Source: a virus
IMG/VR virus record: IMGVR_UViG_3300032323_000644
Location: 1-33,556 of that record
Length of the DNA stretch: 33,556 nucleotides
Direction: 5' to 3' (one strand)
This document shows, piece by piece, positions 655 through 16,512 of the stretch (positions within the stretch are counted from its first letter, which is position 1; the number at the start of each line of letters is the position of its first letter). The notes under the pieces were generated by a model. It saw nothing but the letters and a program-made list of their open reading frames with translations. It was not told where the DNA came from and searched no databases. The position numbers were made by a program, and so were the translations under genes.

Positions 655-669
655 GGATTAGGAGCGAAG

Positions 670-2793
670 ATGTCATATCTTATAAATCGATACAGCGGAC
701 AAACACTAGTTGTATTAGAAGACGGAAACTTAGATACTACTACTAGCCTGGGGCTATTAGGCAGAAATTATACTGGTTACGGTGAAATACAGAACGAAAA
801 CTTTTTGTTCTTGTTAGAAAATTTTGCTAATGCTAGACCCCCAGCAAGACCCATAAGTGGTCAGCTTTGGTATAAAACTGACGACGGAACATTAAATGTT
901 TATAACGGTACGGAGTGGAGAAATGCATCGAGTGCTGTGATTTCAACAACACAGCCTGCAGAAAAAATTAACGGAACAGTTTGGTTCGATTCTGGCTCCG
1001 ATCAACTTTATGTTTTTAACAATGACACCTGGAACTTAATAGGTCCGGAAGGAATCGAAGGATATCAATCGACCAGATTTAAATCACAAATTTTGTTAGA
1101 CACATCCGGAATAAGCCATCCGGTTATTTTAATTCAAATAAATGGTGTGACCATTGGTATAGTTTCAAATACTGATTTTGATATTAGGGCAAGTAATCCA
1201 GTTCCCGGCTTTGATTCTGTCGCTAAAGGTATAAATCTTTCATCGGCAGTGACATTCAAAGGTTCATTGGCCGGTAATGCAGAAACCGCTACTAGATTAC
1301 AAACAGCTAGAAATATCAATGGAGTTCCGTTCAGCGGAGTCACTGACATTTCCATAACAGCAAACACAACCACTAGTCTAACTCCTGGAGATTATATATT
1401 AGGATCATCGTTTAACGGATCTTCTGCTAGACAATGGTCAGTTTCTGCTTCTTCAAGTAATACCCCGGGAAAACTAGTAGCTAGAGACAGTTCTGGAAGT
1501 TTTACAGCAGGAACTATCACAGCAGACTTTGTAGGAACACTAACAGGTAATGTCAATGCAGCATCTGGCACAAGTACGTTTGATGTTGCTGTAGCTAACG
1601 AGTTTATCGGCGCGAATCTTTCTGGAAATGCAGCCACAGCCACCGCACTTGAAACATCTAGGAATATCAACGGAGTCCCGTTTAACGGTACTAACGATAT
1701 TACAGTTGCTGCCAATGCATTTACATTAACTAATACAAGACTAGCACCAAATGTTGTACAGTCCGATTTGACCACCCTGGGAATATTGAATTCTTTATTT
1801 GTAGAAAATGCAGGGGTTCAGGTAGGTTCGACCCTTAAACTTTATTATAACGATGAGGCCGATGTTGATCTCATAGAAAGTTCTAATGAGTTCGGCCTGG
1901 TATTATCATCTTCTTGGGGTGCTAACGACGAAAACTTAGAAAGATTGTTTTTAAACTCTCCGGCTAGATCAGCAGCATTGGGCATGGAAGGCAGAATAAC
2001 TCTTCGTCCGCCAGTCACTGGCGGAGCAAACATCGGTGGAGCAAGCTATCGATACAATAGAATGTTTGCTAATAATGTCAATGCACCTACTATTGAAACT
2101 CAGACAATAAACAGTACAGCCGGTGATAACAGTATCACAGTGGGATCTAGTCTTATAGTTTCTGGAAACCTTGTGGTTAACGGAGTGACTACTACGATTA
2201 ACAGCACAGAAGTAGCTATAGATGATTTATCGTTTACAGTGGCTAGAAATGCTGCTGATCCGATCGCAGCCAATGGTGCAGGACTGTATGTAGGTGGTGC
2301 ATTAGCTAATATTTCTTACAGTGCCACCGGCGACAAATGGACCATTAACAAAAAACTAGATGCCGGTAATAACAATATTATTACTACTGGATTGTTCCAG
2401 GGTACAGCTACTTCAGCTAGATATGCCGACTTAGCTGAAAAATATCTAGCAGACGCAGAATACGAACCGGGAACAGTCCTCGAGTTTGGCGGTAAATTTG
2501 AAGTAACAATGGCGTCTGATGAAACTCGACGAGTTGCTGGAGTGGTATCTAGTAAACCTGCATTTACAATGAATGACGAGTTAACAGGTCAGTATGTTGC
2601 AGTTATAGCTTTGCAGGGCCGTGTCCCATGTAAGGTTCGAGGCAAAATTTGCAAAGGGGACATGTTAGTCAGCGGCGGCAGCGGCTACGCTAGACCAACT
2701 GTAGACCCAAAAATCGGTACTATCATAGGTAAAGCACTAGAAGATTTTGATGGTATCGAGGGAGTTATTGAAGTGGTAGTCGGAAGGCTATAA
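670..2793 (+). CDS. Large tail fibre protein (707 aa)
   Basis: The N-terminus (about 1-130) has two fibre-type modules with GQLWYKTDDGTLNVYNG and GTVWFDSGSDQLYVFNN. The middle carries two copies of a fibre repeat of the form GNAxTATxLxTxRNINGVPFxG (around residues 200-225 and 320-345). The C-terminal ~130 residues (from about 575, SARYADLAEKYL onward) form a domain also found at the end of the next gene. The start at 670 follows AGGAGCGAAG. The N-terminus (INRYSG..L..LEDG..DTTT.L...G.NY.GYGE.QNENFL) is nearly the same as in the next gene, so the two proteins are paralogues built on the same attachment domain. Likely a host-recognition fibre; receptor unknown. Confidence 0.85.
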   Translation: MSYLINRYSGQTLVVLEDGNLDTTTSLGLLGRNYTGYGEIQNENFLFLLENFANARPPARPISGQLWYKTDDGTLNVYNGTEWRNASSAVISTTQPAEKINGTVWFDSGSDQLYVFNNDTWNLIGPEGIEGYQSTRFKSQILLDTSGISHPVILIQINGVTIGIVSNTDFDIRASNPVPGFDSVAKGINLSSAVTFKGSLAGNAETATRLQTARNINGVPFSGVTDISITANTTTSLTPGDYILGSSFNGSSARQWSVSASSSNTPGKLVARDSSGSFTAGTITADFVGTLTGNVNAASGTSTFDVAVANEFIGANLSGNAATATALETSRNINGVPFNGTNDITVAANAFTLTNTRLAPNVVQSDLTTLGILNSLFVENAGVQVGSTLKLYYNDEADVDLIESSNEFGLVLSSSWGANDENLERLFLNSPARSAALGMEGRITLRPPVTGGANIGGASYRYNRMFANNVNAPTIETQTINSTAGDNSITVGSSLIVSGNLVVNGVTTTINSTEVAIDDLSFTVARNAADPIAANGAGLYVGGALANISYSATGDKWTINKKLDAGNNNIITTGLFQGTATSARYADLAEKYLADAEYEPGTVLEFGGKFEVTMASDETRRVAGVVSSKPAFTMNDELTGQYVAVIALQGRVPCKVRGKICKGDMLVSGGSGYARPTVDPKIGTIIGKALEDFDGIEGVIEVVVGRL

Positions 2794-2799
2794 CTTTCA

Positions 2800-2807
2800 A
2801 ATAAATA
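2800..2807 (+). promoter_or_regulatory. T4-type late promoter octamer AATAAATA
   Basis: AATAAATA differs from the T4 late consensus TATAAATA at one base. It lies in the 38-base gap between two fibre genes, 24 bases upstream of the ATG at 2832, where a late transcript would begin near 2813 just before the ribosome binding site GGAGCTG. The same octamer occurs at 6533. No inverted repeat covers the ribosome binding site here. Promoter activity is inferred. Confidence 0.5.
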
Positions 2808-2831
2808 CAATGATTATTTTGGAGCTGAATA

Positions 2832-4643
2832 ATGGCGTATCAAGTTGATAGATTTAATGGTACTTTTTTAGTAGCGGTAGAAGATGGAACTATCGATACA
2901 ACAACCGACATAAGATTTGTCGGTAAAAACTATGCTGGCTACGGTGAAGTACAGAACGAAAACTTCTTGCATCTGCTAGAAAATTTCGCAAATACATCAG
3001 CACCGCCGAAAGCTGTTACAGGACAGATTTGGTATGATAGCTCTACTAAAAAATTAAAATTCTACGATGGCACAAGATTTAAATTTGCCAGCGGTGCAGA
3101 ATACAGTGAATCAGCTCCTACTGGTTTAACTCCTGGTGATTTTTGGTTCGATGCTTCGTCTAATCAACTAAAAGCATGGAACGGAGCAGACTTTATATTG
3201 ATCGGACCAGAAGCTGCTCCTGAGTTCGGAGCATCGGCAGCGATCGGTCAAGTTGTACAAGACAATAATGGAAATCCTAGATCAATAGTTAAGTTTGTAG
3301 CAGGTGACACAACAATGGCCGTCACCAGTGCTGTAGAGTTTACACTGGGATCTGCTAATCCAATACCTGGATTTGCTAGAATTAAGAAGGGTATTACTTT
3401 AATCAATACCGATGGAACTACCGGTATTACTTCTACCAGCGGAGAACAATACTTCTGGGGAACAGCTTCCAATGCACTAAGACTCGGCGGAGAAACTGCT
3501 GATCAGTATATTAGAAAAAATGATTTGAGTTTTCCTCAGCTTGTTAGCTTTGTTGATTCGGGATTTTCTTTAGGTAACGACACAGATTTATTAGTATTTG
3601 TAGAATCCGAAGATCCTTTTTCAATCAATCCTTTGCGAGATGAAGATCAGGTAGTAGTATATCAATCTCAAGTTGGTCAACCTATTACTATAAGACAGCA
3701 GGTAAATGAAAATACCGCTATCAATATTCTAAAAATAAGATCAACAAATATCGAACCATCCGGAGATACACTATACAGCATCGGAACTGTTGATAAAAGA
3801 TTTAACGCAGTAAGAGCAGTCGATCTTTTTGGTAATGTAACAGGTAATGTAACAGGTAATGTAACAGGTTTCGTCAAAGGTAATGTTAGAGCTAGTGATG
3901 ATACAGTGGCATTTAACTCTGATACTAAAACATTCTTCGGAACGGTAGGATCTTCAAGTCAACGTTCGTTGGTCTATGGAGACTTGATTGGTGATGTGAC
4001 AGGATCTGCGACTTCTGCAGAAAAGTTAGGAACATATAATCCTAGCATAACAACTGCTCCGGAGACTGTTGTAGTTCGTGATACTTCTGGAAATATCAAT
4101 GCTACTAGCTTTTTGGGAACTGCTACCTTTGCTGATAGAATAAAAATTGTTGCCGACGGTGTTGTTGACAGTGATCTCAACTATAAATCTGCTAAGAGAG
4201 GACCGATCGCTAACTCAATAGCAGCTAGAACAGCTGACGGTGATCTATTTGCAAGATTATTTGACGGTACAGCCACAGCCGCTCGTTATGCTGACCTAGC
4301 AGAAAAATATCTACCAGATGCAGAATATGCAGTCGGAACGGTTATGGTAATAGGTGGCGAAAAAGAAGTGACAGCTAGCTCTTGGGGAGATCGTGCTATT
4401 GGTGTGATCAGTGAAAACCCAGCATTTATGATGAACAAGGATTTAGAAGGCGGTGTATACGTAGCTCTAAAAGGTCGTGTTCCTGTTAAAGTAATCGGGG
4501 CAGTTAGAAAAGGACAAAGATTAATAGCATCTAATGACGGTTGTGCCACCGCAGCAGTACCACATGCTAATGATGTATTTGCAGTGGCATTAGAAAGCAG
4601 TGACGAAACTGGCGTCAAAGTTATAGAAGCTGTTATACTATAA
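2832..4643 (+). CDS. Large tail fibre protein, paralogue of preceding gene (603 aa)
   Basis: The N-terminal ~130 residues match the preceding fibre (GYGEVQNENFLHLLENFAN, then GQIWYDSSTKKLKFYDG and GDFWFDASSNQLKAWNG). The last ~125 residues repeat its C-terminal domain (TATAARYADLAEKYLPDAEY). The middle differs and contains GNVTGNVTGNVTG encoded by a perfect 12-base tandem repeat. The pattern of shared ends and different centres fits a fibre pair that diversified in the shaft. Ribosome binding site GGAGCTG precedes the ATG. Virion structural role is inferred from these fibre modules. Confidence 0.85.
   Translation: MAYQVDRFNGTFLVAVEDGTIDTTTDIRFVGKNYAGYGEVQNENFLHLLENFANTSAPPKAVTGQIWYDSSTKKLKFYDGTRFKFASGAEYSESAPTGLTPGDFWFDASSNQLKAWNGADFILIGPEAAPEFGASAAIGQVVQDNNGNPRSIVKFVAGDTTMAVTSAVEFTLGSANPIPGFARIKKGITLINTDGTTGITSTSGEQYFWGTASNALRLGGETADQYIRKNDLSFPQLVSFVDSGFSLGNDTDLLVFVESEDPFSINPLRDEDQVVVYQSQVGQPITIRQQVNENTAINILKIRSTNIEPSGDTLYSIGTVDKRFNAVRAVDLFGNVTGNVTGNVTGFVKGNVRASDDTVAFNSDTKTFFGTVGSSSQRSLVYGDLIGDVTGSATSAEKLGTYNPSITTAPETVVVRDTSGNINATSFLGTATFADRIKIVADGVVDSDLNYKSAKRGPIANSIAARTADGDLFARLFDGTATAARYADLAEKYLPDAEYAVGTVMVIGGEKEVTASSWGDRAIGVISENPAFMMNKDLEGGVYVALKGRVPVKVIGAVRKGQRLIASNDGCATAAVPHANDVFAVALESSDETGVKVIEAVIL
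3831..3866 (+). repeat. Three perfect tandem copies of a 12-base unit inside the fibre gene
   Basis: GGTAATGTAACA occurs at 3831-3842, 3843-3854 and 3855-3866 without mismatch. It encodes Gly-Asn-Val-Thr three times. Because the unit is four codons, gain or loss of copies would lengthen or shorten the fibre shaft without a frameshift. Confidence 0.95.
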
Positions 4644-4653
4644 GGATATAAAA

Positions 4654-5583
4654 ATGGCAGGTGTAGGCGAAATAATTTCTGCGGTTGATTACAACGTTAT
4701 ACAGAACAAAATTTCTAGAATAATGGGAACCGGAGTTGCCACAGAAGGCTACGGTCAAACAGTTTCATCGGCACCTATTGTTCCAGATGGCATAACCGGG
4801 ATACTTCCTAATGTTTTAAAAAGCCAATGGGACTCTTTAAGATTCGACATTGTTAACGCTGTAGTACATCAAACCGGCAGTGCTCCAACCATAACAGTGA
4901 TACAGACAACAGATCCGATCAGATACGGACCGTCTCATCCAAACTTTCAATATAATACCATTGCGGATCAAGCAGTATCTCAAAGATTTTCTATAGGAAC
5001 CGGGCAGTTTGTTGTAGAGCAACCTATAGCACAGGCATCTAACATGTTTGTACAAAGAACCTCGTCGTGGTCAGCAAGTTTAACTACTGATCTTACTGTA
5101 ACTTTTTCCACAGTTGACAGAGCAAGATTCTTTTTTAACAGTGGTAGTAAGATTAGATTTAACAGCAATAGAACAGGCGGAGCGGGATCGGCTCAAAATA
5201 CAGCTTGGACGAATCTTTTAGATTCAGTAGGCACTGTAGACTTTGGCGGTTTCGCGCCCACAGTAAACTATTTCGCCCTTACAAATAGTTTCCAAACATT
5301 TTATCAATCAAGTGCAAGCTCACCTTATGCAGGAAATCAAATAACGATGCAGGCGAGATGTAATGTTTCGAATAACTCTGCAGGAACAGCCAATATCGTT
5401 TATTTTAGAGTAACTTTTACTGATACATATGTTGATCCAGGTGCACCTCCCCCGGGAGATACAGTTGACGGTACATTGTCGTTGACTGTCAACGAAGTTA
5501 GAGCAGCCGGATCGTTACTACCATCCGGTACTTTTAACATTATAGGACCATCATATTCAATAACTGCATTCAGCGGTGCATAA
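4654..5583 (+). CDS. Putative virion structural protein (309 aa), first of a tandem pair
   Basis: Not recognised by name. It shares its whole plan with the next gene: N-terminal DYNxIxNxIxxxMxTGxATxGYGQ, then W(D)xLRFDIVNAxVHQTGSxPxITV, then PNFQYxTxAxQAxxxRFxI, and a C-terminal half with RARFFFNSGSKIRF and ITMQARCNVSNNSAGTAN. It contains many short Ser/Thr/Gly beta-type segments and no obvious catalytic motif. It lies 10 bases after the fibre gene with AAGGATATAAAA before the ATG. Position and composition suggest a fibre- or baseplate-associated structural protein; this is inference. Confidence 0.7.
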   Translation: MAGVGEIISAVDYNVIQNKISRIMGTGVATEGYGQTVSSAPIVPDGITGILPNVLKSQWDSLRFDIVNAVVHQTGSAPTITVIQTTDPIRYGPSHPNFQYNTIADQAVSQRFSIGTGQFVVEQPIAQASNMFVQRTSSWSASLTTDLTVTFSTVDRARFFFNSGSKIRFNSNRTGGAGSAQNTAWTNLLDSVGTVDFGGFAPTVNYFALTNSFQTFYQSSASSPYAGNQITMQARCNVSNNSAGTANIVYFRVTFTDTYVDPGAPPPGDTVDGTLSLTVNEVRAAGSLLPSGTFNIIGPSYSITAFSGA

Positions 5584-5612
5584 TAGGTTAAATATTTTCA
5601 AGGAAAAATATA

Positions 5613-6509
5613 ATGCCCGCTAATGATCTTGTACGAATTCCCGATTATAATGATATACGCAACACCATAGTTGCGGTTATGAGCACGGGTTCTGCGACTC
5701 AAGGCTATGGTCAAGCTGTTAATAGTGGGCCAGCAGCGACCGGAGACTTTATTTCCAAGGCCGAATGGGACAAGTTAAGATTTGATATAGTTAATGCCAT
5801 AGTGCATCAGACCGGATCAGTGCCGGCTATTACAGTGGTTAATGAAAATGAACTGGTTAGATACGATGCTGCCCAGCCAAATTTTCAATATCAAACTCTA
5901 GCTAATCAAGCCAATACTAACAGATTTGACATAGCTCTTGGACAGTATGTAGTAGAATCCAGAGGCAGTAGATCTGATAGCGTAAGTTTTTCTAACAGTG
6001 TTAGATCTAGCATTACAGTATCGTTCGTAACCGCAGATCAGGCTCGATACTTTTTTAACTCTGGCGGAAAAATAAGATTTTCTAGTGCGTTTACTTCATC
6101 GTTAGGAACGACTCAGAGCGGTGCCTGGACGACTTTGTTATCTAGTTTAGGAACGGTTAGTTTTGGAGGAAACACTCCGGCAGTTAATTTTTATAGTTTA
6201 ACGAGCTCAGATCAAACGTTTTACAGCCAAGGAACCAGCGGAACATATTCGATGAATAGATGGACATTACAGGCAAGATGTAATGTTGCTAATAACTCTT
6301 CAGGAACTGCTAATACTGTAACTATCACCTCTATTTGGCAGGATATATACACGGATCCAGGCGATCCTCCTCCTGGAGATTTGGTACAGGGAACAATGGC
6401 AATATCTGTCTCTCAACTTAGAGCACAAGGTGCTCTCTATCCAAATTTATTACCAGCATCTTTCAATACTCCTTCTCCCACAGTAACTATCGGCGCTATC
6501 GCTCCTTAA
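5613..6509 (+). CDS. Putative virion structural protein (298 aa), second of a tandem pair
   Basis: Paralogue of the preceding gene, alignable along almost the whole length: DYNDIRNTIVAVMSTGSATQGYGQ near the N-terminus in place of DYNVIQNKISRIMGTGVATEGYGQ, then KLRFDIVNAIVHQTGSVPAI, ARYFFNSGGKIRFSS and LQARCNVANNSSGTAN. The C-terminal halves also match (YTDPGDPPPGDLVQGT versus YVDPGAPPPGDTVDGT). The start follows CAAGGAAAAATA. It ends the structural block; the next gene is preceded by its own promoter-like site. Function unknown; a structural role is inferred from the neighbours. Confidence 0.7.
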   Translation: MPANDLVRIPDYNDIRNTIVAVMSTGSATQGYGQAVNSGPAATGDFISKAEWDKLRFDIVNAIVHQTGSVPAITVVNENELVRYDAAQPNFQYQTLANQANTNRFDIALGQYVVESRGSRSDSVSFSNSVRSSITVSFVTADQARYFFNSGGKIRFSSAFTSSLGTTQSGAWTTLLSSLGTVSFGGNTPAVNFYSLTSSDQTFYSQGTSGTYSMNRWTLQARCNVANNSSGTANTVTITSIWQDIYTDPGDPPPGDLVQGTMAISVSQLRAQGALYPNLLPASFNTPSPTVTIGAIAP

Positions 6510-6524
6510 ATTTTTTCCTCTTTT

Positions 6525-6563
6525 TTTCTCCTAATAAATAAACTACTACTTTAATAGGAGAAA
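6525..6563 (+). promoter_or_regulatory. 9-bp perfect inverted repeat sequestering a ribosome binding site
   Basis: TTTCTCCTA (6525-6533) is exactly complementary to TAGGAGAAA (6555-6563), with a 21-base loop. The right arm holds the ribosome binding site TAGGAG of the gene starting at 6566. A transcript reading through from the fibre genes could fold and hide this site. A late transcript from the octamer at 6533-6540 would start near 6546 and lack the left arm, leaving the site free. T4 genes e, soc and 49 are known to use this arrangement. Folding and use are inferred. Confidence 0.6.
6533..6540 (+). promoter_or_regulatory. T4-type late promoter octamer AATAAATA
   Basis: Same octamer as at 2800. 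It begins on the last base of the left hairpin arm and lies 26 bases before the ATG at 6566. A start about 6 bases downstream of the octamer gives a ~20-base leader. It is the only promoter-like site seen in front of the 10-kb overlapping gene cassette that follows. Confidence 0.55.
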
Positions 6564-6565
6564 TC

Positions 6566-6916
6566 ATGAACGAGATGCTTAAGAAAGCTCTTGAGTTTTC
6601 TAACTTCAAACAATCCTTATCTATCCAAAGAAAAGTCCTGAAAGAAAAGTTAAACGCTAGATTAACTTTTGGTTATGAGGGCGGACTGTTTAAAATCGAT
6701 CAGACACTGATCTGCTTTATTAATTTCTTAATAAATGAAGGCAGAACAGTGAATGTTGTTATCGTTGATATGAATGAAAACCCAATTCTAATCAAAGATT
6801 TGAATATTTTTAAATCAGAAATTCTTGACAGATACTTTACTGCCGTAAACGAATCTTATATCGAATATGGAAAAATTAAAAAAAGCAGAACTGTTGACGC
6901 ATTGGTAGATCTATGA
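6566..6916 (+). CDS. Conserved hypothetical protein (116 aa), first gene of the glycosyltransferase/radical SAM cassette
   Basis: Mixed-charge soluble protein with no signal peptide or membrane segment. The N-terminus (MNEMLKKALEFSNFKQSLSIQRKVLKEKL) is probably helical, and the protein ends in a basic stretch (KIKKSRTVDALVDL). It resembles small proteins I recall from other T4-like marine phages, but no function is known to me. The start follows TAGGAGAAATC, which is buried in the 9-bp hairpin. The stop codon overlaps the start of the next gene (ATGA), so translation is probably coupled. Confidence 0.8.
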   Translation: MNEMLKKALEFSNFKQSLSIQRKVLKEKLNARLTFGYEGGLFKIDQTLICFINFLINEGRTVNVVIVDMNENPILIKDLNIFKSEILDRYFTAVNESYIEYGKIKKSRTVDALVDL

Positions 6917-7773
6917 ATCGAGGAATAGTCATTATTGCTCATAATAATCGAGATATTGATTATTCTCTAATGTCGATTATTTCTGGCGGCCTTGCCAAAA
7001 AATATTTAAATCTTCCTGTAAGTTTAATCACTGATCAATCTACAGTTGATTGGATGAAAACCTCAGGTACATTCGACAAGGCATCTCAAGTGTTTGAGAA
7101 TATCAAACTCATAGATCGACCCGTGTCCGATAACACAAGAAGATTAAATGATGGTCAAGAGTCCAAGACAGTACCATTCTTAAATTCTACAAGATCAAAA
7201 GTATGGGATCTTACTCCTTACGATGAAACGCTATTAATTGATTCTGATTATTTGATTTTTTCTGACTTATTAAATCAATATTGGCACTTGGCTGATAGTG
7301 TTTTGATCGGAAAAGCAATGAATGATGTTCAAGGTCAACGCATAGGTTTTCTTGATAAAAATGTTTCTGATGTTGGTGTGCATTTATATTGGGCAACAAC
7401 TGTAATGTTCAAGAAGAACGAAGAATCAAAAATATTTTTTGATCTTGTGAAACAAGTTGAAGAACATTATGATGTATTTGCAGACTTGTATAGATTCTCT
7501 TCTAAGCAGTTTAGAAACGACATAGCCTTCAGTGTAGCTAAACATATGTTAGACGGTTTCGAAACATCACTAACTCAATCCTTGCCAGATATACTAACAG
7601 TACAGGATAAGGATCTACTTTGCGAAGTTCGAGACGGCCGTCTTTACTTTATTATCAACGATGGTAATAATCCAGATGTTTATATTCCTTGCTCTATTAA
7701 GGATATGGATGTACACTTTATGAATAAACAAAATATTGTGAGGCAGAAAGACAAACTTATGGAGTTGCTATGA
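6913..7773 (+). CDS. GT8-like glycosyltransferase (286 aa)
   Basis: The N-terminus GIVIIAHNNRDIDYSL is a Rossmann-type start for a nucleotide-sugar binding domain. A DXD-type motif occurs as YDETLLIDSDYLIF (DSD around residue 112), preceded by the segment that in GT8-like enzymes places the metal and sugar nucleotide. It is related to the next gene, with the same order of motifs (N-terminal strand, LITDQ/LVTDD, then DXD). ATGA overlaps at both ends put it in the cassette operon. Predicted role: transfer of a sugar from a nucleotide donor; donor and acceptor are unknown. Confidence 0.65.
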   Translation: MNRGIVIIAHNNRDIDYSLMSIISGGLAKKYLNLPVSLITDQSTVDWMKTSGTFDKASQVFENIKLIDRPVSDNTRRLNDGQESKTVPFLNSTRSKVWDLTPYDETLLIDSDYLIFSDLLNQYWHLADSVLIGKAMNDVQGQRIGFLDKNVSDVGVHLYWATTVMFKKNEESKIFFDLVKQVEEHYDVFADLYRFSSKQFRNDIAFSVAKHMLDGFETSLTQSLPDILTVQDKDLLCEVRDGRLYFIINDGNNPDVYIPCSIKDMDVHFMNKQNIVRQKDKLMELL

Positions 7774-8609
7774 ACTTTGGATATCTAATAGTCGCTGCCA
7801 AAAATAAAGAAGTTGACTATAATAAGTTAGCTTATTCATTGGCTTTGAGCATTAAAAATACTCAAAAATACGGATACAACAACGTATGTCTAGTAACCGA
7901 CGATGTCGAATCTGTGCAAGATTTCAAATCTCCCTGGGTCTTTGATAAGATCGTTGGATGGAAGGAAGAAAAGGGTTGGGACGGACGTTCGTTCATGGAT
8001 CAACTAAGCCCGTTCGATTATACTGTATGTCTAGATGCAGACATGTTGTTTACTAGAGATATTAGTCATTGGATAGATTATTTTGTTGAAAATGTTGATC
8101 TATATGTTCCTTCTAAGTCCTATACTTATAGAGGCGAAGTTGTAACTGGGGATTTTTATAGAAAAGCATTTGTAAAAAATGACTTACCGAATCTTTATAG
8201 TTTTTTTACATTCTTTAGAAAAGATTCTAGATTAGTCAACGAGTTTTTTACACTAGGTCGATATATTATAAAAAATCCTGTAGAGTTTTCTAACACGTTC
8301 TTTCCTGATTTTAAACCTAAGATCTTAGGAACTGATGAAGCGTTTGGATTAGCTGCTAAGATTTTAGATATTTCTGATCAAATTTCGTTTCCGCTAGAGT
8401 TCCCGAAGATAGTTCACATGAAGCCCATGATTCAAAACTGGCCTTGGCCAGCTGACTGCTGGAGCGACCATGTAGGATTTTATTTCAATAAAGAAAATAA
8501 AATCAAAATAGGAAATCATTATCAGAGCGATATAATTCACTATGTTGAAAAAGACAAAATCACTGATGAGATTATTAGTTTACAGGAGGAAGTTCTATGG
8601 AAGAACTAG
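7770..8609 (+). CDS. GT8-like glycosyltransferase (279 aa), paralogue of preceding gene
   Basis: It begins FGYLIVAAKNKEVDYNKLAYSL, followed by NVCLVTDDVE and the DXD motif YTVCLDADMLFTRDI (DAD around residue 90). It has a later GTDEAFGLAAKI segment and VHMKPMIQNWPWP, which may form the acceptor side. It shares fold order and motifs with the gene before it, so the pair probably arose by duplication. Its last codons contain the AGGAGG ribosome binding site of the next gene, which starts 13 bases before this gene ends. Sugar and acceptor unknown. Confidence 0.7.
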   Translation: MNFGYLIVAAKNKEVDYNKLAYSLALSIKNTQKYGYNNVCLVTDDVESVQDFKSPWVFDKIVGWKEEKGWDGRSFMDQLSPFDYTVCLDADMLFTRDISHWIDYFVENVDLYVPSKSYTYRGEVVTGDFYRKAFVKNDLPNLYSFFTFFRKDSRLVNEFFTLGRYIIKNPVEFSNTFFPDFKPKILGTDEAFGLAAKILDISDQISFPLEFPKIVHMKPMIQNWPWPADCWSDHVGFYFNKENKIKIGNHYQSDIIHYVEKDKITDEIISLQEEVLWKN

Positions 8610-9214
8610 ACTTTGATGAGTGGGTAAAAAATTATAAACCTGTAACACCAAAATATTTTGCAAGATTTCAACCAGAAGACGGATCCATAGTAGGAATATA
8701 TCCAGAAACTGCACTAGGAGATCAATCTAATATCATAGAAATCGATGATGAAACAGCAATGTTAGTCTATGAAGGAAAACTTCAACTTTCATCATGCTTC
8801 ATTGATATTGATTCTGGAACTTTTCAAATAGCTGAAATCAAAGTATTAAACAAAATAGATGATGTGTTGCACAGAATCGTTGATAAACAATGGTCAAAAT
8901 TTGAAGAAGAGGAAGATGTTTTTGTTACGATGTTTTCCGAAGAAGGAAAAATGACCATAGAGTTATCTGAAAAATATAATGGAACTAGGTCTTCATCTAA
9001 AAAATCTAAAAGAAAAATTCATTGGGACGGATCAACAGTTATGACATTTTTAATAACTGATTATAACGATCCTAATGTTATATTTGATGTAGTTAAAATT
9101 AAAATAGACGACTTAATCGGTAAGTCAACGACATTACGGATTAAAAATGTTCCTAAAAAATTCAGTGTTTATACTAAACGATTATTTCCAAAATATATTT
9201 TAGAGGTCAAATGA
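8597..9214 (+). CDS. Hypothetical protein (205 aa) within the glycosyltransferase cassette
   Basis: I do not recognise it. It has an acidic N-terminal half (MEELDFDEWVKNYKP, then PEDGSIVGIYPETA) and a lysine-rich segment SSSKKSKRKIHW near residue 135. It is predicted to be soluble, with alternating beta strands and no catalytic signature that I can name. The start is well fixed: AGGAGG lies 8 bases before the ATG. It overlaps the next gene by 4 bases. Its place between transferases suggests an accessory or substrate role; this is speculation. Confidence 0.7.
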   Translation: MEELDFDEWVKNYKPVTPKYFARFQPEDGSIVGIYPETALGDQSNIIEIDDETAMLVYEGKLQLSSCFIDIDSGTFQIAEIKVLNKIDDVLHRIVDKQWSKFEEEEDVFVTMFSEEGKMTIELSEKYNGTRSSSKKSKRKIHWDGSTVMTFLITDYNDPNVIFDVVKIKIDDLIGKSTTLRIKNVPKKFSVYTKRLFPKYILEVK

Positions 9215-10128
9215 AAGTCATTGAGTTTGATGTTGTTTTTCTAAGTTATGATGAGCCAAACGCTGATCTTCATTATGCCGATCTGTGTAACAAGGTACCT
9301 TGGGCTAAACGTGTACATGGAGTTAAAGGTAGCGATCATGCACACAAAGCCGCAGCAGAAAAGTCGGAAACAGATTGGTTCATTACTGTAGATGCTGATA
9401 ATATTGTAGATCCTAAGTTCTTTAATATTGACTTGGATATGACTGATCCTAAGATTCAAGTCTACGGTTGGTGCGGTCGTAATGTCATCAATGGACTACG
9501 TTACGGCAATGGCGGATTAAAAATCTGGAAAAAAGATTTCGTCCTTAATATGAAAACTCATGAAAACTCAGACAGCGATCGAGGCCGGGTAGACTTTTGT
9601 TGGGAAGATGGTTATCGAAATTTTCCTCTGAGCTTCAGCGATAGCATTATCACAGGAAATCCATTCCAAGCATGGAGAGCAGGATTCCGCGAAGGTGTTA
9701 AAATGACTTTACTTGACGGTGTTAAAGTTCCTCCATTGGAAATACAACAACGGATATGGTGGCATAATATCCACAGACTGCGTATGTGGTCAACAGTTGG
9801 CGCCCACGAAGAAAACGGAATCTATGCAGTCTACGGTGCTAGACTAGGAACTTGGATGGCCAACTGTACAGATTGGAACTATGTAGATGTTAGAGATTTT
9901 GAGATTTTAAGAGATATCTGGAAACAGTACGGCAAGCCTTACGAGGAAGTCAAGGGCGATGGATTAGTTGAAGCTATAAAAGATCTCGGAGAAAAAATCA
10001 AGTTAGGCCTAGGATTACATTGGCCATATCTAGATGCTGCTCAGAGCAAGTATACTTTAGATTTATACAATGAAACTATGAATCTTAACGATACCTATTT
10101 CCGTATGCCGGTACCAACAAATGTATGA
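9211..10128 (+). CDS. DXD glycosyltransferase-like protein (305 aa)
   Basis: It starts FDVVFLSYDEPNADLHYADL, continues WAKRVHGVKGSDHAHKAAAE (residues 31-50) and then WFITVDADNIV with the metal-binding DAD at residues 61-63. This order fits a GT-A type transferase of the GT2-like kind. The next segment, INGLRYGNGGLKIWKKDF, and the NPFQAWRAGFREGVKM segment recur in the last domain of the 662-residue protein encoded next, so they are homologous. It has an ATGA overlap upstream and an 8-base overlap downstream. Donor and acceptor unknown. Confidence 0.7.
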   Translation: MKVIEFDVVFLSYDEPNADLHYADLCNKVPWAKRVHGVKGSDHAHKAAAEKSETDWFITVDADNIVDPKFFNIDLDMTDPKIQVYGWCGRNVINGLRYGNGGLKIWKKDFVLNMKTHENSDSDRGRVDFCWEDGYRNFPLSFSDSIITGNPFQAWRAGFREGVKMTLLDGVKVPPLEIQQRIWWHNIHRLRMWSTVGAHEENGIYAVYGARLGTWMANCTDWNYVDVRDFEILRDIWKQYGKPYEEVKGDGLVEAIKDLGEKIKLGLGLHWPYLDAAQSKYTLDLYNETMNLNDTYFRMPVPTNV

Positions 10129-12109
10129 TATTTTTTATGTATCTCAAAAGACAGGCGACGAGTTAGATTGGAAAAAAATAAAATCTAAATATTCGCATGC
10201 ACAACGTTTGCAGAATGTAGAAACTTTTGAAGATATAAGATCTAAATCATTTACAAAAATGTTTTGGGTTATCTGGGACGATATCGAAATAAACGAATCG
10301 TTCGATATAGCATCTTACCGAGCTACCAAATGGGACGATATGTATGTCCATGTTTTTAAAAACAAAGATCATTATGATGGTATTTGTTTGTTCCCAAAGG
10401 CATTAGACATATCTCAGAGAGAGTTTCGTCATAGATTTTTTACAGAAAAAAAAGAAATAGACATAGTAGCAAGTGTTCCAAAAAAATACAACATATATTC
10501 GCCAGAGTCTTATGACGACTATCTAAAAATCCAAGACGACCTGTTTTGGATAGTATGGCCAAATCTACACATAACAAACACAGAAATATTCGATACCTAC
10601 TTTGATTTTCATAATACCTATGATAGATCAGAAAATCATATTTTTAAAAATCTCTGTTACAAAAAAGAATCATTTATCAATGGTATAATACTTGCTAGCA
10701 AGAAGAAGCCTATCTCGAAAAGAGAGTTTGATATACGGTATATCATTGATAAAAAAGAACATGATATTATTATTTCTAAATGTAGATACCCTATAGTAAA
10801 AATACAGACCTACGATCAATATTTAGAAGCTGTTAAAACAGTCAATGATGATATGTTCTGGATTGTGTGGCCTAATATTGAGGTTGTAGATCAAACAATT
10901 TTTGATATCTATTTTGATCCTAGAGATGGTAAGTATGACCATGATAGATCAGAAAATCATATTTTTAAAAATCTCTGTTACGAAAAAGAATCTTTCGTTA
11001 ATGGAGTTATCCTGTGCAGTAAGAAAAAACCCATTTCAAAACGAGAGTTTGATATACGATATATCATCGATAAAAAAGAACATGATATTTTAGTCAGTAA
11101 GTCTCAATATCCAATAGTTGAAATAAACTCCTATGACGACTATCTATCAGCTTTAGAAAACACAACTGACGAAATGTTTTGGGCCGTTTATCCAGAAATA
11201 GAAGTTACAGATACTTCTGTGTACAACATATATTTTGATACTCGAGACGGCAAGTATGACTATGACAGGAATATCAATCATGTATTCTTGCATAAGTTCA
11301 AAGACAAAGAATATACTTACAATGGACTGATGCTAATGAGCAAGCAGGCCACGGTAGGAAAAAGAGAAATAGACTTTAGATATCTTATCAATAAAAAAGA
11401 ACAAGAAACAATAGCGTCTGAACACAGATTATATGATATAGTATTCATCAGTTATAATGAACCTAATGCAGATGAGAATTGGTCTAAACTTAAAGAAAAA
11501 TATCCTCTTGCTAAACGAGTACACGGAGTCAAAGGAATACATAAAGCTCACATAAAAGCTGCTGAAATGTGTTCTACTGAAATGATATGGGTAGTAGACG
11601 GCGATGCTGAAATAGTTGACGGATTTATTTTTGACCATGTTGTAACAAGATATGAAAGAAATGTAGTACATGTTTGGAGGAGCCAGAATCCTATCAACGG
11701 CTTAGTCTATGGCTATGGGGGAGTAAAGCTGTTACCTCGTCATCTAACATTAGCCATGGATGTAAACAGTACAGATATGACTACATCAATCAGTGATCAA
11801 TTTAAGGCCGTGGAAAAAGTTTCTAATATTACCGTTTTTAATACTGATCCTTTCAATACCTGGAAGTCAGCATTTAGAGAGTGCGCTAAACTTTCTGCTA
11901 AATTAATCAGTAGACAAAATGAAGATGAAACTAACGAACGATTAGCAGTATGGTGCAGTCAGGGTAAAGATAAGCAATACGGAGAATACGCGATTGCAGG
12001 GGCGATTGCCGGAAGAGATTTTGGTTTATCGTCTAAAGAAGATAAAACTCAACTAGCTAAAATCAATGACTTTGAATGGTTAAAAAAATATTTCGATGGA
12101 CTTCAATAG
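10121..12109 (+). CDS. 662-aa multi-repeat protein: four degenerate glycosyltransferase-like repeats plus one intact DXD domain
   Basis: The C-terminal domain (about 435-662) matches the preceding gene: YDIVFISYNEPNADENWSKL, KRVHGVKGIHKAH and WVVDGDAEIVDG with DGD at residues 493-495. The N-terminal 430 residues are four related units with cores WDDIEI (W52), WPNLHI (W146), WPNIEV (W250) and YPEIEV (Y357), each followed by a segment ending NGxxLxSKKxxxxKREFDxRYxIDKKE. These cores align with the DXD strand but have lost it. The N-terminus DIFYVSQKTGDELDWKKIKSKY also mirrors the start of the active domain. The repeats probably serve as a scaffold or in glycan binding rather than catalysis (inference). 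Confidence 0.75.
   Translation: MYDIFYVSQKTGDELDWKKIKSKYSHAQRLQNVETFEDIRSKSFTKMFWVIWDDIEINESFDIASYRATKWDDMYVHVFKNKDHYDGICLFPKALDISQREFRHRFFTEKKEIDIVASVPKKYNIYSPESYDDYLKIQDDLFWIVWPNLHITNTEIFDTYFDFHNTYDRSENHIFKNLCYKKESFINGIILASKKKPISKREFDIRYIIDKKEHDIIISKCRYPIVKIQTYDQYLEAVKTVNDDMFWIVWPNIEVVDQTIFDIYFDPRDGKYDHDRSENHIFKNLCYEKESFVNGVILCSKKKPISKREFDIRYIIDKKEHDILVSKSQYPIVEINSYDDYLSALENTTDEMFWAVYPEIEVTDTSVYNIYFDTRDGKYDYDRNINHVFLHKFKDKEYTYNGLMLMSKQATVGKREIDFRYLINKKEQETIASEHRLYDIVFISYNEPNADENWSKLKEKYPLAKRVHGVKGIHKAHIKAAEMCSTEMIWVVDGDAEIVDGFIFDHVVTRYERNVVHVWRSQNPINGLVYGYGGVKLLPRHLTLAMDVNSTDMTTSISDQFKAVEKVSNITVFNTDPFNTWKSAFRECAKLSAKLISRQNEDETNERLAVWCSQGKDKQYGEYAIAGAIAGRDFGLSSKEDKTQLAKINDFEWLKKYFDGLQ
10620..10660 (+). 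repeat. 41-base exact direct repeat, copy 1
   Basis: Identical to 10941-10981, 321 bases (107 codons) apart, and falls in equivalent positions of repeat units 2 and 3 of the 662-residue protein (DRSENHIFKNLCY). The perfect identity suggests recent duplication or gene conversion. Recombination between the copies would delete one unit in frame. Confidence 0.95.
10941..10981 (+). repeat. 41-base exact direct repeat, copy 2
   Basis: Second copy of the repeat at 10620-10660. The flanking bases differ at both ends, so the identity stops abruptly while protein similarity continues. Confidence 0.95.
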
Positions 12110-13517
12110 AAACATAAAAGGTAACGAGCTTAGAAAGATTGATGGAAAATATCAATCTCGATATTTGTTGGATGCCGAATTCGTAAAACAAGAACTCGAT
12201 AAGGTCGGAAAAGGATTTTGTCTAGCCAAATGGTTTAATGTTAGCATCCACATACCTACAGGTAGAACTCACAGTTGTTATCATCCAAGAAGCCATCACA
12301 TTCCTTTAGACGAAGTTAAGATTGATGTTAGTGCATTGCACAATACCAACTATAAAAAGCATCAACGAAAACTAATGATTGAAGATTTAAAACCGCAGGA
12401 ATGTAATTTTTGTTGGCAGATAGAAGATAGTGGAACACAACTAAGTGATCGTGCCTATAGAAGTAAAGATGTATGGGAACCTGGTATCATAGACGAAGCT
12501 ATAGAACTAGGGCATACCGGTAATGCTAAACCTAGATATGTCGAAGTAAACTTTAATCAAGCCTGTAACTTTAAATGTAGTTATTGTAGTCCACATCTAA
12601 GTACAGCATGGATGGACGAAATAAAAAAACAAGGTCCTTATCTATTGTCGGAGAGAATCCATAACGATATAACCTGGATTGAAAATGAGATTCCTATAGA
12701 TAACAGTTCGGATAATCCTTATCTTAAAGCCTTCTGGGAGTGGATGCCTGAAATATATCCCACTTTGCAAACATTTCGTATGACCGGCGGCGAACCGCTA
12801 ATGGATAAAAATACGTTTCGTATGTTCGACTATGTGAAAAATAATCCCAAGCCAGATCTCCATTTAGCCATTACCAGTAACTGCTGTCCCCCAGGAAATC
12901 AATGGCAGAAATTTATGGAAGGGTTGAATGACATAACTTCTGCCGATGCAATAGATCATTTTATGCTGTTCTGTAGTTTAGACAGTTGGGGCCCCCAGGC
13001 GGAATACATTCGAAACGGTATGGATTTTGAAGTATTAAAAAATAATGTAAAAGATTTTTTAGCTAACAGTCAACGACACAGTTTAACATTTATCATAACT
13101 TTTAACGCTCTAAGCTACGGAAAGATTTTAGAATATATACAGAATATCTTAAAGCTCAGAAGATCTTTTAGTAAAAAGCGTCAACTGATATGGTTTGATA
13201 TACCTCAACTGCACGATCCTGACTTTTTAAATCCTAAGCTGATTCCTGAAATGGTAGTGGAACTTGAAAAGACTATTAAGTTCATGAAGCAGAATAAAGA
13301 AGGGCGATGGAATCAGTTTATGGGTTTTAGTGATTTTGAAGTTAGCAAAGTTCAAAGATTAATAGACTGGATTAACGCAGACACAGGATTTGACAAGCAT
13401 AAGGCTATGAAAAACTTTTATTTGTTTTTCAGCCAGCACGATGAAAAAAGAGGAACTGATTTTTTAAAAACGTTTCCTGAGCTAAAAGATTTTTGGGAAA
13501 AATGCAAAAATGGATGA
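12096..13517 (+). CDS. Radical SAM protein with N-terminal twitch-type cysteines (473 aa)
   Basis: The radical SAM cluster motif CNFKCSYC is at residues 157-164 (C-x3-C-x2-C), and the SAM-binding TGGEP is at 231-234. Upstream lie four cysteines (C42, C61, C103, C106) in the contexts GFCLAKW, HSCYHP and ECNFCWQIED. These probably bind an auxiliary Fe-S cluster, as in the twitch-type radical SAM family whose auxiliary domain precedes the core. Such enzymes modify peptides or small molecules. It overlaps both neighbours (14 and 8 bases) and is followed by a paralogue. Substrate unknown; the neighbouring glycosyltransferases suggest a glycan or a surface protein. Confidence 0.8.
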   Translation: MDFNRNIKGNELRKIDGKYQSRYLLDAEFVKQELDKVGKGFCLAKWFNVSIHIPTGRTHSCYHPRSHHIPLDEVKIDVSALHNTNYKKHQRKLMIEDLKPQECNFCWQIEDSGTQLSDRAYRSKDVWEPGIIDEAIELGHTGNAKPRYVEVNFNQACNFKCSYCSPHLSTAWMDEIKKQGPYLLSERIHNDITWIENEIPIDNSSDNPYLKAFWEWMPEIYPTLQTFRMTGGEPLMDKNTFRMFDYVKNNPKPDLHLAITSNCCPPGNQWQKFMEGLNDITSADAIDHFMLFCSLDSWGPQAEYIRNGMDFEVLKNNVKDFLANSQRHSLTFIITFNALSYGKILEYIQNILKLRRSFSKKRQLIWFDIPQLHDPDFLNPKLIPEMVVELEKTIKFMKQNKEGRWNQFMGFSDFEVSKVQRLIDWINADTGFDKHKAMKNFYLFFSQHDEKRGTDFLKTFPELKDFWEKCKNG

Positions 13518-14865
13518 TAGAGTAGAATATATTAAAAATGTAAGAGACAGACTAAACAAGGTAGGTCCTGGTTTTTGTGCAATGAAATGGTTGCATCAAA
13601 CTTTGTACTTACATACCGGAGATAATCACAGTTGCTATCATCCTCGTCCGCACCACATTCCTTTAGACGAAATAAAAATAGATGCAAGTGCTCTACATAA
13701 CACTAAGTGGAAAAAACAGCAACGTAAAACTATGTTAGAAGGCGGTCGTCCGGAGGAATGTTACTATTGCTGGAATATTGAAGACCTGCCAGGAGAGCAT
13801 ATCAGTGATAGAATGATACACAGTAGCAGTGACTTTTCTGAACCGTTGATAGAAAAGCTAGCAGAGCTACCATGGGATGCTCCTATCAATCCTAGGTATT
13901 TAGAAGTTAGCTTTGGCAACGGCTGTAACTATCGTTGCGGATATTGCTGTCCACAGGCCAGTACCATGTGGATGGAAGAAATTAAAAAACATGGAAACTA
14001 TGATTTAACCTATAATCAATATGGTATTGAATTTTTAAAATCTGGAACTTATTACGGTCCTAAAGATGAAAACCCTTATATCGAAGCTTTCTGGCGTTGG
14101 TGGCCAAGTCTCCGTAAAGACCTACACACATTAAGAATCACAGGCGGTGAGCCCTTAATGAATCCTGGTGCTATGCAGTTCTTTGACCTATTAGAAGAAG
14201 AACCTGCTCCTCATCTAGAGATTACGTTAAACAGTAACCTTGGAGTGACTTTTGAAAGAGTTGACAGATTAATTTCCAGGGTAACTAGTTTAGTAAATCA
14301 AAAGAAGATACGCAAATTTAGTTTCTTTACCAGCATTGATAGTTGGGGAGAACAGGCTGAATACATGCGCACTGGTCTAAAGTGTGACCATTGGGAAAGA
14401 AATATGAAAGAGGTCATCAAAGCAGGCGCAACTGTAAATCTCATGTGTACCTACAACGTTCTTTGTGTAACTAACTTTCAAAGTTTATTGCATAAAGTTA
14501 TCGAATGGCGCAAAGAATATGGAATGGAAGCAGTAGCATTTGACACACCGTACCTGAAAGAACCCCCTCACTGGATGATCAATATTCTTCCGGAAGAATT
14601 TTTAAAATATCAGGAAGATACACTGACGTTTATCCAGGATAATCAACAATGGTTTACAGGTGTTGAGTATGAAAAGTTCAAACGTGTCACTGATTACATG
14701 AGAGAAAACCCAGTTAGTAAAGAAAAGATACATCAAGGTCGTAGAGATTTTTATAGTTTCTTTACTGAAAATGATCGTAGATTAGGAACTAATCTTTTAT
14801 TGACATTTCCAGAATATGAAGAGTTTTACAAAAGTTGTAAGGAAATTTATCTAAATGATAAATGA
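13510..14865 (+). CDS. Radical SAM protein with N-terminal twitch-type cysteines (451 aa), paralogue of preceding gene
   Basis: It has the same layout as the gene before it: C23, C42, C84 and C87 (GFCAMKW, HSCYHPRPHHIPLDE, ECYYCWNIED), then the radical SAM motif CNYRCGYC at residues 139-146 and TGGEP at 211-215. The segment HHIPLDE(I/V)KID(A/V)SALHNT is nearly identical in both proteins. Two such enzymes in a row suggest either two successive steps or a heterodimer. It overlaps the previous gene by 8 bases and the next by 11. Reaction and substrate unknown. Confidence 0.8.
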   Translation: MDDRVEYIKNVRDRLNKVGPGFCAMKWLHQTLYLHTGDNHSCYHPRPHHIPLDEIKIDASALHNTKWKKQQRKTMLEGGRPEECYYCWNIEDLPGEHISDRMIHSSSDFSEPLIEKLAELPWDAPINPRYLEVSFGNGCNYRCGYCCPQASTMWMEEIKKHGNYDLTYNQYGIEFLKSGTYYGPKDENPYIEAFWRWWPSLRKDLHTLRITGGEPLMNPGAMQFFDLLEEEPAPHLEITLNSNLGVTFERVDRLISRVTSLVNQKKIRKFSFFTSIDSWGEQAEYMRTGLKCDHWERNMKEVIKAGATVNLMCTYNVLCVTNFQSLLHKVIEWRKEYGMEAVAFDTPYLKEPPHWMINILPEEFLKYQEDTLTFIQDNQQWFTGVEYEKFKRVTDYMRENPVSKEKIHQGRRDFYSFFTENDRRLGTNLLLTFPEYEEFYKSCKEIYLNDK

Positions 14866-15688
14866 ATATTTGATCGCTGATTTTGAACATATATCTCTTA
14901 GATGGAAAATAAAATCTGATAAAGTTTCTCAGAAGTGGGCTTCGGCAGTTAATGAAGCGATAGAAAAACACAGTTCATCTATCAAGATACATGCAGATTG
15001 TTGGAATGATACTGAAACTGAATTTAATAATCATTACGATAATCTGATAGCGTCTATGATAGCACTTAAAAATAATATCGCTGATATGCCAGGACTACCA
15101 GGGAAAAAAAGTTTAAATCAGTACGCTTTGAATAATATACATAACTGGTTTGCAAAAAACGAGAAAACTCATGAGTTATTATCGAGTATGCATCATAGCA
15201 TACACAAACTTGAATCATGTTTTAGTAGATCTATATACTATCCTCCTATGATTCAAATTGGTTGGCCGAATACATCTAGATATGAATTCGACAAGGATGA
15301 TTATTTCTTGTTCTCTGAAACTAGAAAATTTGGCGGAATTGAGCTTACATATTCTCATATAGGCAAAGAACCTTTCGCTATATTTTCAAGTAAGGATGAT
15401 TTAACAGATGAAATTTTTGTACCATATACACACTATTCTGCAGATTTTTATCTATGGTTCGGAATGAATGAGTTCACAGGTAATAATGAAGAGTTTTGGA
15501 AATGGTTTGATAAAAATTACGAATGGTTTAAAAAAAGAACAGGATGGCTACCGAGAGATGTAAGAGCCAGGCCTGGCAGATATCAAGTAGCAGATCTTAT
15601 TCTAGAAGATCATGATAGTAAGGAAAATATATTATCTCTTATAAGAAAAAATCCCACAACCATAAAACTAAGGATTGAAACTAAATGA
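14855..15688 (+). CDS. Hypothetical protein (277 aa) between radical SAM and SGNH genes
   Basis: Not recognised. It is rich in aromatic residues and His (for example HHSIHKLE near residue 110, then YYPPMIQIGWPNTSRYEFDKDDYFLFSE broken into several strands, and WLPRDVRARPGRYQVADLIL near 230). There is no signal peptide or membrane segment. The compact, polar composition suggests a soluble enzyme or binding protein. It has an 11-base overlap with the radical SAM gene and an ATGA overlap with the hydrolase gene. Function cannot be called. Confidence 0.7.
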   Translation: MINEYLIADFEHISLRWKIKSDKVSQKWASAVNEAIEKHSSSIKIHADCWNDTETEFNNHYDNLIASMIALKNNIADMPGLPGKKSLNQYALNNIHNWFAKNEKTHELLSSMHHSIHKLESCFSRSIYYPPMIQIGWPNTSRYEFDKDDYFLFSETRKFGGIELTYSHIGKEPFAIFSSKDDLTDEIFVPYTHYSADFYLWFGMNEFTGNNEEFWKWFDKNYEWFKKRTGWLPRDVRARPGRYQVADLILEDHDSKENILSLIRKNPTTIKLRIETK

Positions 15689-16512
15689 GCTATAAACATA
15701 TTATTTGCAGCGGGGATAGTTATACAGCCGGACACGAGCTTGCCGCTGATACACTTATACCTAATTATTTCTCTTATAACGCACCTGTAAAAAAATTAAC
15801 TGATAACGAGAATGCAGAACGAAAAAAAATGCATGAGCAACTTACTAATTTAGAATCAAATCTTGCCGGTAAAATGAAAAATGATTATTGGGATTTAAGT
15901 AAGCAGCGTGCCTGGCCAGGAAAAATAAAAAATTTAACAAATCTCGATGTGAAAAATGTAGGACATAGAGGGATATCTAATCACGAAATATCTTACAGAG
16001 TTTTAGAAACAGCATTTCAATCCTTAGATGTCTACGAATCAAAAGATATTATATGTTTCATTATGTTATCGAATCCTGTCAGACTTGGAACTCCTTCTCA
16101 TAATATATGGGGTGGCGAATATGAATATCGATCACTTATTCCTTGGTTTAATATTAATAACATCGAACCGGAAAAAATGGCAGCATGGTTCAAAAGAATG
16201 TTAGAAGATTATGACGACTATGATTATCTACATGAATCATTTATCCATATACAGGCTGCAAAAAGCACCTTAACACAGCTAGGTATAAAAACTGTGATAC
16301 TCGATTCTGGTTTGTGGACAGAATTTGGAAAAGAATATTCGCATCCTATAAAACCAGATAGATTTGATAGATTTACAAAACTTTTAGATATTGAGTTAGA
16401 ATCTTTTTTTAAGGTAGGCTTCGAGATGAATTTTAAGAGACTGCCTGGCGGTCACATGGAAGAATCTCTGCACGATCTGTATGCAGAGATGATTATAAAA
16501 AAATTCTTATAA
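15685..16512 (+). CDS. SGNH/GDSL-type hydrolase-like protein (275 aa)
   Basis: The N-terminus IICSGDSYTAGHEL carries the block I GDS motif with the putative nucleophile Ser at residue 10. An Asn-containing block follows (KNVGHRGISNHEISYRV, about residues 91-107). The C-terminal PGGHMEESLHDLYAEMI could supply the His of the triad. In surface-glycan clusters SGNH proteins commonly add or remove acyl groups; whether this one is an esterase or acyltransferase cannot be told. It is the last gene of the + strand cassette, and its Leu-stop codons TTA TAA are shared with the opposing gene. Confidence 0.65.
   Translation: MSYKHIICSGDSYTAGHELAADTLIPNYFSYNAPVKKLTDNENAERKKMHEQLTNLESNLAGKMKNDYWDLSKQRAWPGKIKNLTNLDVKNVGHRGISNHEISYRVLETAFQSLDVYESKDIICFIMLSNPVRLGTPSHNIWGGEYEYRSLIPWFNINNIEPEKMAAWFKRMLEDYDDYDYLHESFIHIQAAKSTLTQLGIKTVILDSGLWTEFGKEYSHPIKPDRFDRFTKLLDIELESFFKVGFEMNFKRLPGGHMEESLHDLYAEMIIKKFL
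16507..16512. other. Palindromic TTATAA giving the stop codons of two convergent genes
   Basis: Read on either strand, TTATAA ends a gene with Leu-stop (TTA TAA): the + strand hydrolase ends at 16512 and the - strand gene ends at 16507. The two operons therefore overlap by six bases with no intergenic spacer, and no GC-rich stem with a T-tract is seen at the junction. Confidence 0.9.

Follow-up and report, generated by a model that had tools for sequence, protein, structure and literature searches.

A hairpin predicted to mask a ribosome binding site, with a T4-type late-promoter octamer inside it: a probable gene e-type translation switch in uncultured phages

Early messages reach T4 gene e, a hairpin masks its Shine-Dalgarno sequence on long messages, and its late promoters are positioned such that the 5' strand of the hairpin is missing from late messages, which are translated; the ribosome binding sites of soc, 49 and I-TevI are also masked, according to the available text of PMC3014915. 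For I-TevI, a late promoter lets late messages escape, similar arrangements are given for segB and mobE, and such hairpin genes form part of long transcripts that cover early and middle genes, as stated in the available portion of PMC2988022. The explanation given so far for T4 units that combine a hairpin with a late promoter is that they lock out early expression. Here we describe the same design at a gene referred to as gene 1, where it is kept in at least 83 distinct leaders of uncultured phages only distantly related to T4. The stretch of DNA analysed, here called the window, is an IMG/VR virus record of 33,556 bases, and no earlier report of the element was found in the open-licence papers searched.

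The locus resembles T4 gene e in the predicted cost of opening the Shine-Dalgarno sequence: the same calculation gave 12.8 kcal/mol on the read-through and 2.8 kcal/mol on the late message for T4 e, used as a positive control, and 12.3 and 1.05 kcal/mol for the window leader. For soc, a second positive control, the costs were only 3.1 versus 0.5 kcal/mol, and for segB, they were 9.4 versus 4.6 kcal/mol. It differs from T4 e in what lies around it, as e is a single lysis gene that receives early messages from small genes annotated upstream (as far as the available text goes), whereas ten overlapping genes follow here and, in relatives, baseplate and fibre genes lie upstream. From soc, 49, I-TevI, Aeh1 mobE and T4 segB it differs in that early or middle transcripts are involved there (available portion of PMC2988022). 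T4 gene 51, which lies in a mostly late region, is a further likeness, as it was computed to be masked on read-through (9.4 kcal/mol) and open from its TATAAATA (0.9 kcal/mol), the masking being the outcome of a single calculation. Its leader has GCTCCTTTATT 5' of TATAAATA and AATAAAAGGAGC 3' of it (L109 = AF158101 75000-122000, locus position 41480), and the available text of PMC3014915 or PMC2988022 does not list gene 51 as masked.

Anatomy of the gene 1 leader in the window

The features of the junction, and a second octamer used for comparison, are as follows.

5613..6509, + strand: upstream gene of 298 aa in the fibre region, no family match, putative source of read-through
6525..6533, + strand: left arm TTTCTCCTA, complementary to the ribosome binding site (sequence and fold)
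6533..6540, + strand: octamer AATAAATA, a putative T4-type late promoter (sequence, position, conservation)
6535..6538, + strand: inner 4-bp extension of the stem, paired with 6550-6553 past an A-A mismatch (predicted fold)
6546, + strand: predicted start of the late transcript, with 5 nt skipped after the octamer
6555..6563, + strand: right arm TAGGAGAAA, containing the Shine-Dalgarno sequence AGGAG at 6556-6560 (sequence and fold)
6566..6568, + strand: ATG start codon of gene 1
2800..2807, + strand: second AATAAATA, comparison promoter, 32 nt 5' of the fibre gene at 2832

The sequence-only reading had described a perfect 9-bp repeat around the ribosome binding site with the octamer beginning at the last base of the left arm, and this proved exact to the base, with base 6533 belonging to both. 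The 5-nt gap between the octamer and the start at 6546 follows what we take to be the T4 geometry. The fold of 6505-6600 consists of the 9-bp stem, the A-A mismatch and four further pairs (z -3.26), and 2 of 200 dinucleotide shuffles of this region fold equally well. Judged on the window alone, a repeat of 9 bp stands out only mildly: the 33.5 kb contain 23 perfect inverted repeats of this length (loops of 3-40), and when the left region was shuffled, 279 of 20,000 versions matched the right side of the gene 1 leader over 9 bp. The case for the hairpin is decided by the relatives, in which the kept position of the octamer and the co-adaptation of the arms provide strong, comparative evidence for it. 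An Rfam search of the window returned no family. We set aside a reading of the hairpin as a terminator, as no terminator-like site was found within 6181-6697 and the T run precedes the hairpin rather than trailing it.

The octamer AATAAATA occurs twice in the window (shuffle mean, 4.5), and both copies sit 32-33 nt 5' of the start codon of a same-strand open reading frame. Downstream of the second copy, the site is predicted to be unmasked, with costs of 1.3 versus 1.3 kcal/mol.

Relatives and the co-adaptation of the arms

Searches with gene 1 led to 2 loci and searches with gene 2 to 64; when the window and a pattern-scan match were added, 65 sources had a gene 1 match, 7 of which were cut at the contig end. 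The 58 sources that cover the start of gene 1 yielded 33 distinct leaders (first set), with the window's own leader being seen four times among the 58, three of these as copies of one contig. One contig is nearly identical to the window, and the remaining gene 1 homologues of the first set are at 47-63% identity. For the second set, a profile search gave at least 378 relatives, of which 80 were kept, and 3 were added from genome contigs; the input was 82 loci, namely, 79 of the 80 plus the 3 (L138, whose match starts at residue 6, was omitted), and among the matches listed, these gave 59 distinct leaders, 52 of them new.

TAAATA lies 26-37 nt 5' of the ATG in all 33 leaders of the first set and 30-39 nt 5' of the start in 50 of the 52 new leaders (the latter among the matches listed), which is the promoter placement of a T4 e-type unit, given the presumed transcript start. 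For both sets together, the range is 26-39 nt 5' of the start codon in 83 of 85 leaders, again among the matches listed. The two leaders without the octamer, L191 and L192, belong to gene 1 homologues with 34% identity on marine Gammaproteobacteria MAG contigs. When 15 kb of the window was compared with a phage collection in a near-DNA search, no match was obtained, nor did tblastn with genes 2 and 1 give one, and an exact IMG/VR pattern scan for both arms and the octamer returned the near-identical contig alone. The exact sequence of arms and octamer is therefore not widely conserved, but such a scan is uninformative on pairing. T4-superfamily core genes (gp43, gp44, gp46, gp47, gp20, gp21, gp23, gp17 and gp55) were found in the gene 1 relatives by tblastn with P-SSM2 proteins, and the terminase of G001, a long relative, is nearest to that of PA5oct-like phages (53.7%); tblastn found no T4-type core genes in the window itself. 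The window also carries a tRNA-Lys (TTT) gene at 25427-25504 on the + strand, within a run of - strand genes.

The arms vary in sequence and position between clades, and the left arms still fit their own Shine-Dalgarno side better than those of other leaders. Pairs can be seen by eye in L003 (AATAACTTCT with AGGAGTTATT), L020 (TTACTTCTAATTA with TAATTAGGAGTAA) and L026 (CCCCTGATT with AATCAGGGG). In our swap test, the left side, made up of the 40 nt 5' of the octamer and its first base, was paired with the right side, the expected late transcript up to the ATG. When the leaders were grouped into 13 clusters at 75% identity and each cluster was represented once, the cognate duplexes had a mean of -13.2 kcal/mol versus -9.4 kcal/mol for permuted ones (sd 0.69), and none of 20,000 permutations was as low; a score counting Watson-Crick pairs only gave 9.69 versus 7.26 (0 of 20,000). 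When looser clusters were used (65%, n=6), 51 of 20,000 permutations equalled the cognate value. The result was repeated in 24 fresh clusters from among the matches listed (-13.25 versus -9.21 kcal/mol, sd 0.48, 0 of 20,000), in which the pairs-only score was 8.54 versus 6.79 (0 of 20,000, likewise among the matches listed). No excess was seen in 13 fibre-gene leaders with the same octamer from the same phages (-7.85 versus -7.85) or in 9 other octamer leaders of these phages (-6.6 versus -7.0). A left segment shifted 30 nt upstream showed a small excess (122 of 20,000), which a 10-nt overlap with the real segment may only partly explain; L017 has an alternative pairing within this control segment.

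An alignment of 11 leaders showed two-sided change in 6 of 10 outer pairs, and 88% of the cells of the outer helix were paired; when the alignment was slid, the paired share over the complete structure fell from 78.5% to at most 51%. The inner 5-bp helix was paired in only 60% of cells in this alignment, and we make no claim for it in all leaders. Support from shuffling for the covariation was moderate: two-sided pairs were at least as numerous in 8 of 500 shuffles, and pair types in 115 of 500. Mismatches within the arms were G-U rather than A-C in 9 versus 1 cases in the first set and 10 versus 3 in the second (among the matches listed), which favours an RNA of this strand, although base composition may contribute. 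The sequence-only reading would have been contradicted by arms that are lost in relatives or lack compensating changes there; this comparison was run, and the arms were found to be co-adapted in most clades.

Predicted accessibility points the same way. Opening the Shine-Dalgarno sequence in the 33 leaders of the first set was predicted to cost a mean of 9.15 kcal/mol on the read-through and 2.08 kcal/mol on the late message, with the read-through value being higher in every leader, and 4.84 kcal/mol when the upstream part was shuffled. The corresponding values for 22 control octamer leaders were 2.88 (read-through), 1.24 (late) and 3.09 (shuffled). At most 5 of 100 shuffles reached the observed value in 23 of the 33 gene 1 leaders and in none of the 22 controls; in the other ten, more than 5 of 100 upstream-part shuffles did as well. 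Five of these ten belong to the L017 group, whose pairing partner, by eye, seems to lie between the octamer and the start, a part untouched by the shuffle. Among the matches listed for the second set, the read-through cost exceeded the late cost in 46 of 50 new leaders, by at least 3 kcal/mol in 39 of them, and was not higher in 4 (means, 8.2 and 2.6 kcal/mol). The main exception among these matches is a group of 10 leaders (L150, L153, L154, L157, L159, L160, L165, L171, L181 and L187) with weak predicted masking. Their octamer is mostly GGTAAATA, and L154 has, by eye, an 8-bp match to its own Shine-Dalgarno sequence. By prediction and comparison, the Shine-Dalgarno sequence or the AUG would thus be held in a helix on long messages, weakly so in the L150 clade. 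When 40 octamer leaders from the window and six long contigs were surveyed, gene 1 leaders accounted for five of the six largest differences, the remaining one being a fibre-gene leader of G004; the motif rule of this survey omits GGTAAATA, so that gene 1 of G004 is absent from it.

The octamer and the genes around it

The motif NATAAATA is enriched in front of start codons, standing 25-45 nt 5' of them in 14 of 47 cases in the long relative G001, 8 of 22 in G002 and 8 of 17 in G003, and rearranged motifs scored lower, the commonest being AAATATA (11 of 118 in G001), which overlaps TAAATA. Homologues of gp55 were found by tblastn in G001, G002, G003 and G004 (E 8e-11 to 5e-12). The same method found no gp45 or gp33 homologues in the relatives and no late-transcription genes in the window, which is a fragment; a search with PF09116 (gp45) gave no match in 8 records and none in its control genomes either, and so carries no information. 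By its position, its conservation and the presence of gp55 homologues in relatives, the octamer behaves like a T4-type late promoter.

Elsewhere in these genomes, a terminator-like GAGC-loop-GCTC-TTTTT abuts AATAAATA (G001 100134, - strand; G002 71599, + strand; G003 2586, - strand). Since some other octamers directly follow terminator-like hairpins, the gene 1 junction uses different means. The leader of a 94-aa gene (MSRPKPK...) has TACGTG...CACGTA with AGGA in the loop and would display, not hide, its ribosome binding site (G001 155513, - strand; G002 20349, + strand; G003 60663, - strand; G005 16192, + strand; G006 2398, + strand).

Gene 1 of G001 lies at 138,849, after an unbroken same-strand run from 105,005 whose start adjoins divergent gp55, gp47 and gp46. 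Ten proteins of this run were scanned, and the matches obtained (PHROG) were all to families of the baseplate wedge, hub, virion or fibre. The gene order of G002 is that of G001, and some of the upstream baseplate and fibre genes of both have octamers of their own. No early block lies directly upstream on the gene 1 strand in either genome; early or middle genes upstream on the same strand, a trait of T4 e-type units, were not seen in the PHROG matches of G001 or the gene order of G002.

Downstream of the hairpin, the window holds a run of ten genes, all nine junctions of which overlap by 4-14 nt.

6566..6916, + strand: gene 1, 116 aa, conserved; model with two long helices and a small sheet (pLDDT 88)
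6913..7773, + strand: gene 2, 286 aa, predicted GT-A glycosyltransferase (structure model)
7770..8609, + strand: gene 3, 279 aa; the gene at its place in two relatives matches gene 2
8597..12109, + strand: genes 4-6, 205, 305 and 662 aa, overlapping reading frames
12096..14865, + strand: genes 7 and 8, twitch-domain radical SAM proteins (NF033640, E 3e-92 and 1e-90)
14855..16512, + strand: genes 9 and 10, end of the overlapping run, no family match above cut-off

For gene 1, a structure search gave no solved-structure match at E 0.001 or better, and a weak resemblance to prefoldin (E 0.68) was set aside. Pfam gave no match to gene 2 and NCBIfam none above cut-off, but the gene 2 model looks like a glycosyltransferase of GT-A fold (pLDDT 89). 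Its nearest solved structures are glycogenin, the best Foldseek match (E 5.3e-7, TM 0.42-0.46), and the UGGT catalytic domain, and 24 homologues all keep D110 and D112 (DSD); we presume that the family is GT8 (glycogenin-like). Gene 3 is probably a paralogue of gene 2, because the gene at its place in L040 and L041 matches gene 2. The twin radical SAM genes are adjacent and belong to the same overlapping run as the predicted glycosyltransferase. The description of these genes as an accessory cassette did not hold: among the matches listed, gene 2 is present at all 50 new loci, gene 3 at 49, gene 4 at 48 and gene 5 at 47, and homologues of two upstream genes are present at 48 and 47 of the 50, with the gene at 5613..6509 being found at 47. 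Almost every relative examined keeps genes 1-5 beside the same genes of the fibre region, so genes 1-5 are not accessory.

A probable promoter-gated translation switch and its alternatives

In light of these data, we consider it probable that the element is a translation switch gated by its promoter, in the manner of T4 gene e. On a message read through from the fibre genes, the left arm is predicted to pair with the Shine-Dalgarno sequence of gene 1 and to block ribosome entry. The position of the octamer points to a gp55-type late promoter inside the hairpin; a message starting after the octamer would lack the left arm, so that the ribosome binding site would be exposed and gene 1 translated. 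The sequence-only reading had likewise proposed that a late transcript would be translatable and read-through would not, and the predicted masking and exposure, as in T4 gene e, and the placement of the octamer bear this out. Given the 4-14-nt overlap at each of the nine junctions, translation could plausibly be coupled from gene 1 onward, and one hairpin may in this way set the translation of the whole ten-gene run. As far as prediction and comparison go, there is good support for both the hairpin and the way in which it acts. The element is real, selected and of a known working type; the lineage is new and the setting is unusual.

The role of the switch is less certain than its mechanism. 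A likely role would be to make the glycosyltransferase cluster dependent on its own late promoter and not on baseplate and fibre messages. Since the upstream genes are virion genes, the unit would separate messages from its own promoter from late read-through, not from early messages, and together with the lack of a terminator-like site at the junction, this favours insulation from fibre messages. We tentatively suggest that the element could serve as a translational insulator between late operons, by which, without a terminator, translation of the next cluster depends on where the message originated. The left arm would then have been reinvented with different sequences and in different places, with the rule of an arm before the late start being kept across a very large lineage of uncultured phages.

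A strictly T4-like logic, in which early or middle messages traverse the fibre genes and the hairpin silences the cluster until late transcription, seems to us rather unlikely. The anatomy is that of T4 e, soc, 49 and I-TevI, and the blocked messages of e and I-TevI are early or middle ones in the available text of PMC3014915 and PMC2988022; however, the same-strand run of G001 and G002 holds baseplate wedge, hub and fibre genes, and sigma-70-like sites at positions 1-17500 of the window are not above chance (54 found versus 60.8 expected). Should early messages extend to the fibre genes, the classical early lock could still apply.

It is less probable still that the hairpin serves translational coupling, with gene 1 being translated on the long message when ribosomes of the upstream gene disturb the left arm. 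Among the matches listed, the distance from stop codon to octamer is tight (median 24 nt, quartiles 23-25, 82 of 83 leaders), but compact intergenic space also yields such spacing. The outermost paired base lies 0-10 nt past the stop in 46 of 82 leaders, and the arm lies more than 10 nt past it in 34 of 82 (both among the matches listed). The window arm begins 15 nt past the stop, outside the reach of a terminating ribosome, and coupling leaves the constant place of the octamer inside the element unexplained.

That the pairing is a by-product of chance, a pyrimidine-rich promoter flank pairing with any Shine-Dalgarno sequence, is already disfavoured and most improbable: right arms do pair moderately with many left arms (swapped mean of about -9.4 kcal/mol), and 9-bp repeats are not rare in the window, yet cognate pairing exceeded swapped pairing in two separate sets and fibre-gene leaders with the same octamer show nothing of the kind. 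An element acting as DNA, be it a cruciform or a shape required by the late promoter, is equally hard to credit; the partner of the Shine-Dalgarno sequence lies wholly 5' of the octamer in 52 of 82 leaders (among the matches listed), so that the octamer is enclosed by the repeat, but other octamer promoters of the same phages have no repeat, and the excess of G-U over A-C mismatches favours RNA.

Taken together, the switch has virion genes on its upstream side and a probable glycosylation cluster after it, a kind of site that differs from those in T4. The arm-swap test can be used to search uncultured phages for such control. Provided that the messages being blocked are late, a single stretch of a dense genome would serve two messages that differ in coding content.
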